A DNA stretch of 64,000 nucleotides from an uncultured Pseudomonadota bacterium (GTDB taxonomy: Bacteria > Pseudomonadota > Gammaproteobacteria > Steroidobacterales > Woeseiaceae). Under the pieces are notes generated by a model, which did not search any database, had not been told where the DNA came from, and was given only the letters and a program-made list of their open reading frames with translations. This document shows positions 16,480 through 21,804 of the stretch, piece after piece. Within the stretch, counting starts at the first letter, position 1. Every line of letters starts with the position of its first letter. The stretch is from assembly GCA_913055625.1 (NCBI GenBank), contig CAJXJW010000009.1:62001-126000 (forward strand). The letters are read 5' to 3'. A program made the translations under genes and the position numbers.

Positions 16480-16869
16480 ATGGCAGACAAGACATCGAAA
16501 AAGCCCGTTGCACTGGCGGTCGGGGCCGCCATCGCGGGTACGTTCGCACTCGGCTCGACGGCATTCGCCGGCTCGGACGCCAGCCCGTTCGGCATGACGA
16601 AGCTGAGCTCCGGCTACATGCTGGGCATCGTGGGCGAAGGTTCCTGCGGCGGTGACAAGGAAGGCAAGGACGAGGCTGAAGGTTCGTGCGGCGAAGGCTC
16701 CTGCGGCGGCGACAAGGACAAGGCTGAGGGTGCTTGCGGCGAAGGTTCCTGCGGCGGCGACAAGGACAAGGCCGAGGGTTCCTGCGGCGAGGGTTCCTGC
16801 GGCGGCGACAAGGACAAGGCCGAAGGTTCCTGCGGTGAAGGTTCCTGCGGCGGCGACACGACCGAGTAA
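16480..16869 (+). CDS. HvfA/bufferin-like EGxCG-repeat precursor peptide
   Basis: 129 residues. It has a clear signal peptide ending STAFA-GSDA near residue 30, then a linker (PFGMTKLSSGYMLGIVGEG), then a repeat array with nine cysteines, all in EGSCG or EGACG motifs and mostly paired as EGSCGEGSCGGDKDKA. HvfA-family and bufferin precursors carry EGKCG-type motifs whose cysteines are converted to oxazolone/thioamide copper-binding groups by an MNIO (DUF692) enzyme and a partner. No such enzyme is encoded next to this gene; it is followed directly by a terminator. It has a strong AGGAGAG ribosome site. The context behind a sigma/anti-sigma pair suggests metal- or envelope-stress induction. Metal binding and modification are inferred from the motif. 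Confidence 0.82.
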   Translation: MADKTSKKPVALAVGAAIAGTFALGSTAFAGSDASPFGMTKLSSGYMLGIVGEGSCGGDKEGKDEAEGSCGEGSCGGDKDKAEGACGEGSCGGDKDKAEGSCGEGSCGGDKDKAEGSCGEGSCGGDTTE

Positions 16870-17203: not shown

Positions 17204-18466
17204 TTAACCGCTGGGCCTGGCATCACCGGGCACGGAATCCATCCTGTTTTTCCCCATCGGTCCAAAACCCCTCGCGGAGGGGTGAGCCGACGCGCGTATC
17301 AATGCGGCCAGTGACAGGCCCGTCCTGCCGCTGCCGTCGTCGCCGGCAACGTAGCCGCACTCCGGCACGGCGATGCCGTCCGGGCGGAAGAAGCGCCAGT
17401 GGTCCTGGAAGTCCCTGCGGATCGTGAAGCCGCCCTCGTGTACCGCGCGGTGGTGCCGGGTGCAAAGCAGCATGAGATTGTCGAGGCTCGTCTCGCCGCC
17501 GTTGGCCCAGCGCTCGACGTGATGTGCGTTCACGAACCGCGTGCGATTGCAGCCGGGGAAGCGGCAGCACTTGTCCCGTGCCCACAGTGCCTGCGTGATC
17601 CGCGCGGGCACCGTTCGGGATTGTCGCCCGACCGAAAGCGGCGCTTCCTGCTCGTCCTCGACAACTGTCACCGTGCGCGTGTCGCAGGCGAGACGGCGGA
17701 CCGTCTCTAGCGGCAACCCGGAGCGCCCGCGGCCGTCATCGAGCGCCGAGCGATCAACGTGCACCGTGACGAGGTACCGCGGCGATGGTTGCGACGACGT
17801 TGGCCCGCCGTCGAGGAACGCTTTCACCATCGACACGAACGCGTCTGCCCGTTGCGCGCTCCACGCCTCGCCGGAGAGTTCGGGGTCGTCCGCCGACAGC
17901 CCTTCGTGCGCGGCGTCCAGCGCCTTCTCAACCATCTCGCCGTCCTCGAGCGGTACTTCCAGCGTGATTGAGACACTGCCTCTCGCTATATTCCGCCGCA
18001 ACGACAGGTAACGCCGTTCGTGCGCGCGAACGGCCTCGTCGGTCGATGCCACCGTGCCGCACCGCAGTTCCCGGCAGCGTTCTTCGACCTGCGCTGCCGT
18101 GTGCTTGAGGGCAAAGCCGAGCAGCTCCGACTCGTCCTGCAGGTGCGCGACGCGCGTCAGCGCACGCACTTTCGTGTACGACAACCGTCCTTCAGCGAAC
18201 GCCTGTGAGAGATTCGGCAACGGCAACAACGCGTGCGCGACACGCACTTTCTCGCGTGCCGCGCTCAGCGAAATGTCGCAGCGCCAGGCGAGCCAGTCGC
18301 TGCAGTTGTCGAAAGACCATTGCAGCCAACCGGCCCGCTCGTCGAACTCGCGGATCAGCACGAGCTGCTCGTAACAGGCGGCGTCCATCCGCGCCGCGAG
18401 CCGGCCGATCGCGGCGTCCAGGGCGTCGACCGATTGCCGGCGTGGCACCGTGCTTTCCCGGGGCAT
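17204..18466 (-). CDS. DUF222 / HNH endonuclease (13E12-like)
   Basis: 420 residues. Residues 10-300 are a DUF222-type helical domain (RRQSVDALDAAIGRLAARMD, GWLQWSFDNCSDWLAWRCDI, RLSYTKVRALTRVA). The C-terminal HNH nuclease runs through CCRFPGCNRTRFVNAHHVER, WANGGETSLDNLMLLC and TRHHRAVHEGGF, with Cys ligands, the His-His pair and Asn-His all present. Relatives include the actinobacterial 13E12 repeat proteins, several of which are known SOS-regulated genes. The ATG at 18466 follows GGGAG. Upstream, a LexA-like operator and the -10 box are interrupted by the transposon at 18507-21032, which removed the native -35. The protein itself looks intact. Its target DNA is unknown. Confidence 0.88.
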   Translation of the reverse strand: MPRESTVPRRQSVDALDAAIGRLAARMDAACYEQLVLIREFDERAGWLQWSFDNCSDWLAWRCDISLSAAREKVRVAHALLPLPNLSQAFAEGRLSYTKVRALTRVAHLQDESELLGFALKHTAAQVEERCRELRCGTVASTDEAVRAHERRYLSLRRNIARGSVSITLEVPLEDGEMVEKALDAAHEGLSADDPELSGEAWSAQRADAFVSMVKAFLDGGPTSSQPSPRYLVTVHVDRSALDDGRGRSGLPLETVRRLACDTRTVTVVEDEQEAPLSVGRQSRTVPARITQALWARDKCCRFPGCNRTRFVNAHHVERWANGGETSLDNLMLLCTRHHRAVHEGGFTIRRDFQDHWRFFRPDGIAVPECGYVAGDDGSGRTGLSLAALIRASAHPSARGFGPMGKNRMDSVPGDARPSG

Positions 18467-18492: not shown

Positions 18493-18512
18493 TACTGTGA
18501 TTATATCCAGTA
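18493..18512. promoter_or_regulatory. LexA-like box at the left transposon junction, upstream of the HNH gene
   Basis: TACTGT-GATTATAT-CCAGTA. The left half-site and spacer are host sequence; the right half-site is the tip of the transposon. It differs from the gammaproteobacterial CTGT-N8-ACAG core by a single base (CCAG for ACAG). On the minus strand the spacer includes TATAAT (18500-18505), the -10 element of the HNH gene, so a repressor bound here would block that promoter. Confidence 0.7.
18499..18506. repeat. Left copy of the 8-bp target-site duplication (GATTATAT)
   Basis: GATTATAT directly abuts the left element end and is repeated exactly at 21033-21040 beyond the right end. Eight bases is the duplication length known for the IS1595 family. 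Confidence 0.88.
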
Positions 18513-18554
18513 TATATACTTGACGAACCCACTGGATATGGATACAGTAGATTC
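18508..18554 (+). repeat. Left terminal inverted repeat
   Basis: Starts CAGTATATATACTTGAC and matches the right end in 25 of the first 27 bases and 38 of 47 overall. It contains an inward promoter-like pair (TTGACG at 18520-18525, 17-base spacer, TACAGT at 18543-18548). Mismatches with the right repeat concentrate in the spacer of the embedded LexA-like palindrome. Confidence 0.88.
18530..18549. promoter_or_regulatory. LexA-like palindrome inside the left inverted repeat
   Basis: CACTGG-ATATGGAT-ACAGTA: one base off the CTGT-N8-ACAG core. It lies over the -10-like TACAGT and aligns exactly with the perfect-core copy in the right repeat. Confidence 0.5.
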
Positions 18555-18604
18555 CGGTTATGAGTCCGACAATTTTTGGCTGGAAGTGACGCCCGAGGTA
18601 TTGG

Positions 18605-19294
18605 CTAAGGGTGGGGCTTACCTTTCTTCTTCCGGTCTTCTGGGAGATCCCGAAATGGGAGGCCCGGACGAAGTAACATGCGAGTTGTATCTCGCAGAAG
18701 CGCTTCATTTTCTTCGTACTGCTGCCGCAGCTTGTTAACAAGCTCAATGGCAATTGGTACTGCATCTTCGACTTTCGCGGCGTTCTCTGTGAGCGTGTCA
18801 ATGTCCCACTGTATAGGGGTCTTGACCGCGCTTGGGTGTTTGCCATGCATTTCCAGGAGCCCCTTTTGGCGGTAACTGATCGCGTGCATATAGAACGGAT
18901 GAAACAGGAACTCACCGGATTCGGTGTTGGAGAATGCCGCTCCGTGGGCGATCTTATTTCTAATCTGAGAGAGCTTTAGCAGGCTGTTAAGCTCCTTCTT
19001 GCACGCCTTACGAAACTCATTGAACGGGTCTGGATACAAGACCTGATCTAGACAATTGATAATCAGATTCCGCCTATCCTCAAATGAGCGTAGGTTGGCA
19101 AATGTGGTGACCGCGCCCTCTGATGGGGAATACTCGCCGCAGACGAGCATGCAATAGAACTCAGAAAGTTTGTTTTCGGTCAATGCCCATGCTGTTAGAG
19201 CGCGGCCAACTTGGCAGTAGAACCGGGCCGATTCGACGGCGCTTGATTCCCCTGTAAACTCAATCTTTGATTTTTTGCCGGTTGTCTTAGACAT
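18605..19294 (-). CDS. Transposon passenger protein with a HEPN-type RNxxxH motif
   Basis: 229 residues and probably cytosolic, with no membrane segment. After a basic N-terminus (MSKTTGKKSKIEF) it is predicted to be mostly helical (YCQVGRALTAWALTENKLSEF, SFEDRRNLIINCLDQVL) and contains SQIRNKIAHGAAF at about 110-122. Arg112-Asn113 to His117 fits the Rx4-6H motif of HEPN ribonucleases, including the favoured polar residue after Arg. HEPN proteins are common toxins and RNases in defence systems; activity here is inferred from one motif. The C-terminus is charged (RDLPEDRKKKGKPHP). Base use is distinctly less GC-rich than the chromosome, fitting transfer with the element. The ATG 19292-19294 overlaps the divergent ATG of the next ORF (shared CATG). 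A longer start at 19423 would run through that ORF. Confidence 0.72.
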   Translation of the reverse strand: MSKTTGKKSKIEFTGESSAVESARFYCQVGRALTAWALTENKLSEFYCMLVCGEYSPSEGAVTTFANLRSFEDRRNLIINCLDQVLYPDPFNEFRKACKKELNSLLKLSQIRNKIAHGAAFSNTESGEFLFHPFYMHAISYRQKGLLEMHGKHPSAVKTPIQWDIDTLTENAAKVEDAVPIAIELVNKLRQQYEENEALLRDTTRMLLRPGLPFRDLPEDRKKKGKPHP

Positions 19295-19430
19295 GAGCGA
19301 TAAGCCTTCGAAAAAAACAGACGAAAAGAAGCGCGACAAAGTGCTTGAGCGGATGTTGAAGACGCCGCCTGAACCGCGCAAGCGGCCTGAATCGGACGCG
19401 AAGAAACCCAAGAAATCCAGCAATAAATAG
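19293..19430 (+). CDS. Small lysine-rich ORF (45 residues)
   Basis: Encodes a strongly basic, disordered-looking peptide, MSDKPSKKTDEKKRDKVLER followed by MLKTPPEPRKRPESDAKKPK and KSSNK. Its start codon overlaps that of the divergent HEPN-motif gene by two bases, so expression of the two may be linked. No clear ribosome site is visible and no family is recognised. It may be a DNA- or RNA-binding accessory, or not a gene at all. Confidence 0.42.
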   Translation: MSDKPSKKTDEKKRDKVLERMLKTPPEPRKRPESDAKKPKKSSNK

Positions 19431-19520
19431 ACAATAAATTCTAGAATCAGCAGGTTAGCTTGTCGATCGACAGGGTGCTAATATTCGTGCGGACCTCTGA
19501 TGCATTGAGGATTGCGCGCC

Positions 19521-19766
19521 ATGAATGTAGTTAGCGTCAAGTATCGCCAAGTGTCGGGGTGGCACGTGTTCACGTCAGAAGACGTGCCGGGCCTTTACGT
19601 AGCAAGTCCGGACGCGATCCGCGCGTACAATGATGTTGGCCCATCCATTCAACGACTCTTGCATAGCTATGGCGCAGAATATTTGCCGCGCATGTCGGCA
19701 GAGGACTTTTTCGAGTTAGGGCCTGAGGCCACCGAAGAGAGGGTCATAGATTACTCTGCCGCATGA
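19521..19766 (+). CDS. Small protein resembling DUF1902/HicB-like antitoxins
   Basis: 81 residues. The beginning, VVSVKYRQVSGWHVFTSEDV followed by PGLYVASPD, resembles the short beta-rich HicB/DUF1902 partial RNase-H-like fold. A helix (DVGPSIQRLLHSYG) follows. In HicAB systems that fold is the antitoxin. The ATG at 19521 has TGAGGA upstream. The next gene begins inside its stop (ATGA, 19763-19766), so the two are co-translated. The assignment rests on weak resemblance; the gene could also be an unrelated accessory protein of the element. Confidence 0.6.
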   Translation: MNVVSVKYRQVSGWHVFTSEDVPGLYVASPDAIRAYNDVGPSIQRLLHSYGAEYLPRMSAEDFFELGPEATEERVIDYSAA

Positions 19767-19975
19767 ACGACTCAAGCCTTGTGCCCGATTACGAGTTGTT
19801 CGATCGTTTGGATCGGCTTGGGTACAAGATAACGGGCGAAGACATGCAACTATCCACGATCTGGAAGCACGTGGATAGCGGCCAAGAAATCTTGGTCCCA
19901 AAGGCGGAGGGTGGTCTGTATCCGGCCAATCTGGTCGATGATCTAGAGCGGCACATACAGTCAATCACCGTCTAG
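19763..19975 (+). CDS. Small protein coupled to the HicB-like gene
   Basis: 70 residues (YELFDRLDRLGYKITGEDMQ, STIWKHVDSGQEILVPKAEG, LYPANLVDDLERHI). The helix, then strand pair with IWKHVDSGQEILVP, then helix order loosely recalls HicA-type double-stranded RNA-binding toxins, but the catalytic 'GSHH' motif is missing. It starts within the previous stop codon (ATGA). The pair may be a degenerate or unusual toxin-antitoxin-like module. The function is unknown. Confidence 0.55.
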   Translation: MNDSSLVPDYELFDRLDRLGYKITGEDMQLSTIWKHVDSGQEILVPKAEGGLYPANLVDDLERHIQSITV

Positions 19976-20039
19976 AAACCACTCGCTGTCAATTTCGCGA
20001 AGGACGCTAAGCGCCCATTCGTATGCCTCGCGAGACTTG

Positions 20040-20966
20040 CTAGCTGGCGTATGCGCCGTCAGGCCGCCGATAGGTCAGGCGCTTACCTTCGATAGCCTTG
20101 AGGGCTGCGTCACAACGGGCAGCATCGTCAATCTTGAGCGCTGCACGGTTGTTGTAGCGGAAGGCGAACTCACCGATATAGCGGTGAAGATGCTCGGGGC
20201 TCATGTGCTGATAGACGCCCTTGAGGCCGCGGCTAAAGATGCCGAAGAAGCCTTCAACGGTGTTTGTCGTGATGTCACCGCGAACGTATTCGCCAGCGTA
20301 GTGATTGACTGACTCGTGGCTCTTAAAGCCCTTGCCGATCTTCGTATACAGACCGGCACCGTCCGTCATCAAGCGAGCGTCCTTGTGAATCTGCGATTCC
20401 AGGATGGGCTTGATGTTCTCTACGGTGACTTTGGGAACGTGGAAAGCACGCACGCGGCCCTTGCGCTCTACCAGAGCGACAACCGGCTGCTTGGCCTTGA
20501 TGTGCGAGCCCTGTCCCTTACCGCGAGTACGGCCAAGGTACATTTCGTCAGCCTCTACGATGCCGCTGGAACCGGGACCGCCTAACTGGTCGGTTGTGGT
20601 ATCGGTCATGGCCTCACGGATGCGGTGGGTCATAAACCACGCCGTCTTGTACGTGACGCCCAAAGAGCGATGAATCTGGTGGCTGCTGATGCCTTTCTTT
20701 GAGGAAGTCATCAGGTGCACCGCCAGCAGCCACTTATTCAGAGGGACTTTGGAGCGCTCGAAAACCGTACCCACAGTGACGGAGAACTGCTTGCGGCAGT
20801 CCTTGCACTTCCAGAGGCCGGGGCGGGCAGTCTTGCCCTTGATCGAGTAGTGATCGCCTACGACGCCGCAATGAGGGCAAACCGGGCCGTTGGGCCAGCG
20901 GATCGCCTCAAGGTGCTGACGTGCCTTGTCTGCGTCGTGGTAAATCGGGTTTGAAAGGTTACACAT
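20040..20966 (-). CDS. IS1595-family transposase
   Basis: 308 residues. An N-terminal zinc ribbon (VCPHCGVVGDHYS, then LWKCKDCRKQFSVTVGTVFE) is followed by a helix-turn-helix-like region (SSHQIHRSLGVTYKTAWFMT). The ISXO2/IS1595 catalytic domain has VEADEMYLG (Asp140), LMTDGAGLY (Asp202) and TNTVEGFFGIFSRGLKG (Glu238). The zinc ribbon plus DDE/N core is the hallmark of the family. The protein appears full length and free of frameshifts. Its ATG follows GAGGGAAG, which overlaps the palindrome CCTCAATTGAGG (20975-20986). A LexA-like operator overlaps its promoter. Confidence 0.95.
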   Translation of the reverse strand: MCNLSNPIYHDADKARQHLEAIRWPNGPVCPHCGVVGDHYSIKGKTARPGLWKCKDCRKQFSVTVGTVFERSKVPLNKWLLAVHLMTSSKKGISSHQIHRSLGVTYKTAWFMTHRIREAMTDTTTDQLGGPGSSGIVEADEMYLGRTRGKGQGSHIKAKQPVVALVERKGRVRAFHVPKVTVENIKPILESQIHKDARLMTDGAGLYTKIGKGFKSHESVNHYAGEYVRGDITTNTVEGFFGIFSRGLKGVYQHMSPEHLHRYIGEFAFRYNNRAALKIDDAARCDAALKAIEGKRLTYRRPDGAYAS

Positions 20967-20974
20967 GACACTTC

Positions 20975-20986
20975 CCTCAATTGAGG
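20975..20986. promoter_or_regulatory. 12-bp perfect palindrome at the transposase ribosome site
   Basis: CCTCAATTGAGG lies eight bases before the transposase ATG and contains part of its Shine-Dalgarno sequence. It could be an operator for an unknown repressor or a fold affecting translation. Function is not shown. Confidence 0.4.
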
Positions 20987-20989
20987 TTC

Positions 20990-21009
20990 TACTGTACCAA
21001 CGTACAGTG
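20990..21009. promoter_or_regulatory. LexA-like SOS box overlapping the transposase promoter
   Basis: TACTGTACCAACGTACAGTG: perfect CTGT-N8-ACAG core, with the inverted repeat extending to ACTGTAC / GTACAGT. It covers the -10 hexamer (20991-20996), the usual arrangement for LexA repression. Confidence 0.65.
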
Positions 21010-21019
21010 GGTGTGTCAA
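20991..21019 (-). promoter_or_regulatory. Transposase promoter within the right inverted repeat
   Basis: On the minus strand, TTGACA (21014-21019) is followed by a 17-base spacer and TACAGT (20991-20996), 25 bases before the transposase ATG. The -35 is a perfect sigma-70 match and the -10 matches four of six. Confidence 0.7.
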
Positions 21020-21026
21020 GTATATA

Positions 21027-21046
21027 TACTGCGATTATATACAGTT
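21027..21046. promoter_or_regulatory. LexA-like box at the right transposon junction
   Basis: TACTGC-GATTATAT-ACAGTT. The first half-site is transposon tip; spacer and second half-site are host sequence. The core has one mismatch (CTGC for CTGT). It overlaps the displaced host promoter that now points into the element. Confidence 0.65.
21033..21040. repeat. Right copy of the 8-bp target-site duplication
   Basis: GATTATAT immediately outside the right end, identical to 18499-18506. Confidence 0.88.
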
Positions 21047-21198: not shown

Positions 21199-21804
21199 AT
21201 GCCGAAAAGTCCGAATCGATGCGCCTGGGCCGCGGGCGGCGGCCCGAACTACATCACCTATCACGACGAGGAGTGGGGTGTGCCGGTGTACGACGATCAC
21301 GTGCAGTACGAGTTCCTCGTGCTCGAGGGAGCACAGGCCGGACTGAGCTGGTCGACGATCCTGAACAAGCGCGATGGCTACCGGAAGGCGTTTGCCGGCT
21401 TCGATCCGGCGAGGGTGGCGCGATTTACGGCGCGGCGTGTCGAGAAGCTGCTGGAAGACCCGTCCATCGTGCGCAACCGGCTGAAGGTGGAGTCCGCCGT
21501 GGGCAACGCGAAGGCGTTCCTGAAAGTCCAGAAGGAATTCGGCACGTTCAGCGACTATATCTGGAGCTTCGTCGGCGGCAAGCCGATCCAGAACCGGCGC
21601 CAGAAGGACAGCGACATTCCGGCGACGTCGCCGGAGTCCGACGCGCTCAGCAAGGATCTGAAGAGGCGCGGCTTCCGCTTCGTCGGCAGCACCATCATCT
21701 ACGCCCACATGCAGGCGACCGGCATGGTCAACGACCACGTCGTCGGCTGCTTCCGGCACGGGCCCTGCGCGCGCCTCGGCAAGCGGGGGCGTCCGGCGGC
21801 TTGA
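21199..21804 (+). CDS. tag: DNA-3-methyladenine glycosylase I
   Basis: 201 residues, near the E. coli Tag length. The zinc-snap residues are present: an N-terminal Cys in NRCAWA, His in YHDEEWGVPV, and His/Cys in NDHVVGCFRH near the C-terminus. The substrate pocket YEFLVLEGAQAGLSW and the KDLKRRGFRFVGSTIIYAHM helix are typical. It removes 3-methyladenine from alkylated DNA in base-excision repair. The transposon and its flanking LexA-like box lie upstream, and the gene's own promoter was not identified. Its position beyond an SOS-type operator is suggestive, but the box points towards the HNH gene. Confidence 0.95.
   Translation: MPKSPNRCAWAAGGGPNYITYHDEEWGVPVYDDHVQYEFLVLEGAQAGLSWSTILNKRDGYRKAFAGFDPARVARFTARRVEKLLEDPSIVRNRLKVESAVGNAKAFLKVQKEFGTFSDYIWSFVGGKPIQNRRQKDSDIPATSPESDALSKDLKRRGFRFVGSTIIYAHMQATGMVNDHVVGCFRHGPCARLGKRGRPAA

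Follow-up and report, generated by a model that had tools for sequence, protein, structure and literature searches.

The window analysed here, a stretch of 64,000 nucleotides (nt) from an uncultured Woeseiaceae bacterium (contig CAJXJW010000009.1, positions 62,001 to 126,000), carries a transposon whose insertion split a palindrome of the LexA-operator type. The element occupies positions 18507 to 21032 (2,526 base pairs (bp); minus strand, taken from its transposase) and was delimited by its inverted ends, its 8-bp target duplication and the families matched by its transposase. Two perfect copies of the duplication, GATTATAT, can be read directly from the sequence at 18499 to 18506 and 21033 to 21040. 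They enclose a left inverted end with the tip CCAGTA (18507 to 18551, plus strand) and a right inverted end with the tip GCAGTA in its minus-strand reading (20988 to 21032), and the terminal inverted repeats are 84% complementary over 44 nt. The transposase is encoded by an open reading frame (ORF) of 308 amino acids (aa) at 20040 to 20966 on the minus strand, and combines a zinc ribbon with an ISXO2-like DDE domain (PF12762, 2.7e-35; PF12760, 2.7e-17; NCBIfam NF033547, 3.6e-59; all above cut-off). With this transposase type, the 8-bp duplication and the terminal inverted repeats all present, the element is a member of the IS1595 family. Protein and end-pattern searches agree that it is single-copy in the host genome, and a search for its ends in 73 genomes of the genus turned up, besides the window copy, weaker matches in two further genomes.

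Deleting the element together with one duplication gives TACTGT-GATTATAT-ACAGTT, in which the half-sites CTGT (18495 to 18498) and ACAG (21041 to 21044) form a perfect CTGT-N8-ACAG box whose N8 spacer is exactly the duplicated sequence. Both junctions again resemble this box, each at one mismatch: CTGT-GATTATAT-CCAG on the left (18495 to 18510) and CTGC-GATTATAT-ACAG on the right (21029 to 21044). A preliminary description of this DNA had already proposed an IS1595-type element with an 8-bp duplication at these positions, a rejoined site fitting the SOS box with the duplication as its spacer, and junctions one base from the core consensus; all of this holds at base level, in the transposase profiles and in the box scan. 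That description did not include a further perfect CTGT-N8-ACAG box inside the right end (20992 to 21007), 25 bp from the tip. This box lies over the likely transposase promoter predicted from the sequence (20991 to 21019, minus strand; TTGACA at 21014 to 21019, a 17-bp spacer and TACAGT at 20991 to 20996), covering its spacer and -10 hexamer, and is followed by the transposase start. A one-mismatch counterpart, CTGG-N8-ACAG, lies in the left end (18532 to 18547), also 25 bp from the tip, and in two relatives of the element (loci L163 and L369) each end has a perfect box at this distance from its tip. Control of the transposase by LexA is thus likely, judging from the position of the box.

The host genome contains one LexA-family match, which aligns over residues 1-201 with an entry that we take to be Escherichia coli LexA and has the recognition helix FRSANAAEEH in place of FRSPNAAEEH. 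Two boxes, CTGTACGGAATTACAG and CTGCGATTATATACAG, precede the host lexA gene, and the right junction box is identical to CTGCGATTATATACAG over all 16 bases. The gene whose upstream box was split by the element encodes a DUF222-HNH protein (17204 to 18466, minus strand; Pfam DUF222, 1.1e-20; HNH, 4.3e-6). Comparison with 29 other DUF222 loci of the genus, four of which were excluded for want of a located start, recovered an upstream box with at most one mismatch in 18 of the remaining 25 (13 perfect, 5 with one mismatch), in every case within 90 bp. Measured to the position that aligns with the start of the window gene, the boxes end 8 to 44 bp upstream (28 bp at the window gene itself), and the spacers of many of them resemble ATATAATY, as at the window site. 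Boxes of the form CTGG-N8-ACAG, which is the left junction read on the other strand, precede other DUF222 genes of the genus, and the exact sequence TACTGT-N8-ACAGT occurs at five places in the host genome: before DUF222 genes on contigs C3 and C4, inside the element, and at two others. Because the single LexA is of the E. coli type, boxes stand before lexA and the box is conserved at DUF222 homologues, the rejoined site is, by comparison, a genuine LexA operator of the E. coli type. A host LexA with a different motif, which the earlier description named as an argument against operator choice, is unlikely on the same alignment and lexA-upstream boxes; the uninterrupted counterpart that the description expected in relatives exists before homologous DUF222 genes, though not at the identical locus. 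Each junction box is a variant that also occurs naturally, the right one before the host lexA and the left one before DUF222 genes, which makes preserved repression after insertion plausible. As an observation in its own right, DUF222-HNH genes are multicopy in the genus, many with an upstream LexA box (for example, G000 C3:487866 and C4:12427), which suggests an SOS-controlled gene family.

Relatives of the element were collected by transposase homology alone, giving 433 loci with 449 transposase hits; both ends and a duplication could be called for 242, and merging identical sites left 184 unique insertions, on which the counts below are based. Records from plasmid collections (35, of which 30 from one species, at a limit of 1e-60) and phage collections (4) were left out of the counts. 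A CTGT-N8-ACAG box centred on the duplication with at most one mismatch was found at four of the 184 insertions, namely the window element and L003, both perfect, and L002 and L163, each with one mismatch. The L163 element lies in the same genus as the window and is also inserted before a DUF222 gene, and two ORFs follow downstream of L003, of which the second matches AbiEii. The two perfect centred boxes, one of them in the window, compare with 0.001 expected from the flanks' own rate. Duplications are rich in AT (70%, against 44% in the flanks). LexA boxes were also counted at AT-matched positions in the same flanks; this control, which could use 154 of the 184 insertions (30 could not be used) and matches AT content but not promoter position, gave 9 against 1.7, 5 against 0.065 and 2 against 0.015, the last pair being for the centred box when up to one mismatch is allowed. 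The frequency of centred boxes exceeds chance, and AT-richness does not explain the excess of LexA boxes. A separate pattern scan of viral contigs for tip plus end core returned 43 stretches, of which only one (L552, the contig of L368) had a far end; the rest resemble coding coincidences.

A second set of cases comes from alphaproteobacterial relatives, where the known LexA box is GTTC-N7-GTTC. This box is centred within 40 bp of 12 of the 184 insertions (13 boxes; 0.52 expected in the same flanks), and lies exactly 4 bp from the duplication at six of them, with 0.0066 expected; the same 4-bp spacing recurs at L075 and L296 among 89 further one-sided junctions. Some of these relatives lie upstream of genes of the recA, lexA or dinB type. 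recA adjoins L057, L067, L028 and L278, with the family confirmed for L278, and also L296 as judged by eye; lexA adjoins L066, and an impB/mucB/samB-type (dinB-like) gene adjoins L071. The neighbour of L282 is 34% identical to the dinB-type gene of L071, a 33-residue piece of it scoring only 0.017 in the family search, and L023 precedes a PHP-domain protein that we read as DnaE. lexA was sought in 16 hosts of the window element and its relatives and matched in 15. In 11 of these hosts LexA is of the alphaproteobacterial type and the start of its gene could be located; all 11 have GTTC-N7-GTTC within 220 bp upstream of lexA, and the lexA genes of the window and L163 hosts have CTGT boxes upstream. 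For the others, this upstream check gave no clear box in the L002 host, no located start for L066, only a lexA fragment in the L003 host and no lexA match in the L296 host. Some alphaproteobacterial relatives therefore adjoin the very LexA box type that their own host's lexA carries. One locus (L442), with a flank homologous to the L377 flank, has a degenerate box and enters no SOS count; its near end carries three overlapping GAAC-N7-GAAC boxes directly before the transposase start, as if it had alphaproteobacterial LexA boxes of its own.

Other lineages of the family have other targets. Class labels, drawn from named neighbouring genes and boxes with SOS taking precedence (L071 also fits AGG), could be placed on 183 tree rows, that is, the 184 insertions minus L305, L442 and L432 (short protein) plus two one-sided rows; 33 were labelled AGG, 20 SOS, 12 dif and 118 none. 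These classes cluster on the transposase tree when compared with 500 label shuffles each: SOS requires 13 changes, where the shuffles averaged 19.3 and never fell below 16; the corresponding figures are 4, 11.75 and 9 for dif, and 12, 30.7 and 25 for AGG. One lineage inserts in AGG-N8-CCT, ten times near a DnaA-type helix-turn-helix gene (L079, L050, L313, L041, L341, L337, L043, L054, L032 and L042) and twice near an Xre-like helix-turn-helix gene (L061 and L277) that we read as an S24-type repressor; the palindrome may be an operator of a DnaA-type or Xre-like regulator. Another lineage abuts dif-like sites, at eight loci by a strict pattern (L164, L168, L169, L300, L308, L350, L354 and L362) and at 12 by a looser one (adding L315, L318, L321 and L352), mostly in a single geometry of duplication followed by TCGCATAATGTA. 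Two side observations concern the sites themselves: the Bosea-type loci L006, L016 and L024 lie between one and the same pair of genes with different duplications, the pattern that several separate hits on a single intergenic palindrome region would leave, and betaproteobacterial L020, L021 and L076 adjoin a common GCATAACCCCATGCAAGTTTTGCAT-like sequence.

Element tips and targets are related beyond the window. AGG-N8-CCT is the target of 28 of the 43 elements with CC tips and of 6 of the 141 with other tips. In a base-by-base comparison across the 184 insertions, 3.33 of 8 positions match between tip and flank, compared with 2.28 in permutations; without the AGG class, the window element, L003 and L002 (147 insertions), agreement is 2.74 against 2.40, the largest value in 2,000 permutations being 2.72. 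An analogous rule linking GGG tips to CCC-N8-GGG targets proved weak (4/33 against 5/150). The CAG tips belong to the element itself: at L368 and L369, CCAG/ACAG tips and 8-bp duplications occur together although the target has no box. This bears out the earlier proposal that the tips supply the near-operator half-sites, and disposes of a 16-bp duplication as their source. Flanks resembling an element end occur at 13 of the 184 insertions, with 0.15 in the control, and some of these are tandem pairs; junctions can therefore be hit again. At L041, L278 and L164/L351, neighbouring copies have the same or almost the same duplication, as would result if one copy had gone into a junction left by an earlier one.

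On balance, we lean, with a little more than even confidence, towards assigning the window element to a lineage of IS1595-family transposons that uses LexA operators as insertion sites. On comparative grounds, this choice of target holds for some lineages and across two LexA codes, not for the whole family. Several observations weigh against it. The centred class is small, counting began only after the motifs had been noticed, so that the probabilities are descriptive only, and on the window's own branch the centred box is present in three of five members (the window element, L003 and L002) and absent from L368 and L369, both on viral contigs. L002 is located in a repeated and unremarkable stretch, and no internal box is found in the ends listed for L003, L002 and L368. 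Among the alphaproteobacterial cases, box distance varies in those of the recA type, and no SOS gene was recognised by eye alongside the 4-bp cases L019, L038, L039, L040 and L377. The weak GGG-tip rule and the unclassed rows point the same way. The preliminary description had predicted that most insertions would sit in CTGT-N8-ACAG spacers, which fails for the family, and its broader claim that the element selects LexA operators is supported for the window element, L003, L163, L002 and some alphaproteobacterial relatives, but does not extend to the rows without any class. Because 118 of the 183 labelled rows fit no class, operator targeting is a partly supported lineage trait, as far as the sites can be compared, not a family rule.

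If this is right, LexA would repress the transposase, and DNA damage would remove LexA, so that the transposase is made while operators are vacated. The transposase, which acts on the CAG tips of the element, could then take a pair of such half-sites, spaced by 8 bp, as its target. Both junctions would again be operator-like, so that the neighbouring genes may keep near-normal control, and such a junction could itself be hit again. A fuller version of this model, which we offer tentatively and hold at somewhat less than even, is SOS-coupled homing: the loss of LexA would both turn on the transposase and empty its target operators, the tips would rebuild operators and thereby, once the damage is repaired, bring both sides back under LexA, and related lineages would have moved the principle to the alphaproteobacterial LexA box, AGG-N8-CCT and dif.

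For the window's lineage we prefer direct reading of the half-sites, and the main rival is guidance by bound LexA, in which operator-bound LexA recruits the transposase and sequence matters only through LexA. We regard such guidance as possible but on the unlikely side. It would account for the use of two unrelated LexA box types, each in hosts whose LexA is of the corresponding type, and for the off-centre position of the alphaproteobacterial boxes, with its fixed 4-bp spacing, so that it fits those cases better than direct half-site reading does, and it has a published analogue in the IS1202 elements at dif (PMC10132070). In the window's lineage, however, the cut falls within the operator, between the half-sites, and among elements with CC or CAG tips the half-sites of the target correspond to the tips, an outcome that a guide protein does not predict. 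A general liking for AT-rich, promoter-near DNA, which would sometimes catch LexA operators in GC-rich genomes, seems improbable: it is in keeping with the AT-rich duplications and with the AT-rich 8-bp repeats described for the IS1595-family element ISApl4 (PMC12561309), but the excess persists against AT-matched positions in the same flanks, the geometry is fixed, and target classes cluster by transposase lineage.

Survivorship is a distinctly improbable account, under which insertion is widespread and the insertions observed are the tolerated ones, namely those that restore an operator. The resemblance of the junction boxes to natural variants suits it, yet it predicts neither the fixed 4 bp beside GTTC-N7-GTTC, where nothing re-forms, nor the reuse of junctions. 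To coincidence, one insertion having met one operator, we give almost no weight; the single copy in the host genome and the size of the centred class would allow it, whereas the perfect site at L003, the L163 insertion in the same genus before another DUF222 gene and the alphaproteobacterial cases would not be expected.

Known elements share parts of this behaviour. IS30 has targets that resemble its own ends, as here, and the res-hunting Tn5053 group homes to a recombinase's site; in both, the transposase family and the targets differ from those of the window element. A search for literature on IS1595 and LexA or SOS-box targeting yielded no report of LexA-operator targeting by a transposon among the matches listed. 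ISApl4, which belongs to the same transposase family, likewise makes 8-bp AT-rich duplications but, unlike the window element, has no LexA-operator target mentioned in the part of the paper available (PMC12561309). The dif/pdif hunters of the IS1202 family (ISAjo2 type) are likewise DDE elements whose insertions keep a constant distance to the binding site of a protein, and their transposase has been proposed to contact bound XerC; according to the available text, which makes no mention of LexA, they have transposases of 441-457 aa, 5-bp duplications and a XerC site as target, so that the window element, with 308 aa and 8 bp, falls outside the family as defined there (PMC10132070). Mutator-like prokaryotic elements such as TnGBS2 are also directed to regulatory DNA, upstream of sigma-A promoters, but they belong to another transposase superfamily and target promoters generally, not the operators of one repressor (PMC3942029). 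ISCR elements have an SOS-induced transposase whose promoter is controlled by LexA, a control that in the window element we infer from sequence, and the accessible portion of the report states no operator targeting (PMC13393415).

Besides the transposase, the element contains three passenger ORFs for which family searches gave nothing above cut-off: one of 272 aa (18605 to 19423, minus strand) with only a sub-threshold HEPN-like match, and two on the plus strand without family matches, of 84 aa (19512 to 19766) and 70 aa (19763 to 19975), which overlap and, by eye, could be a toxin-antitoxin pair. On the side away from the DUF222-HNH gene, the element is followed by a DNA-3-methyladenine glycosylase I gene, identified by family matches (21199 to 21804, plus strand). 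Elsewhere in the window, an ORF with repeated EGSCGEGSCGGDKDKA-like units lies at 16480 to 16869.

Transposons with defined targets are few and informative. If the reading proposed here is true, homing to the operators of one stress regulon by a transposase under the same repressor would tie the timing of a jump to its landing place, and would spread SOS-type control sites with passenger genes next to them. The variety of targets used by members of a single transposase family also constitutes a natural series for the evolution of target choice.

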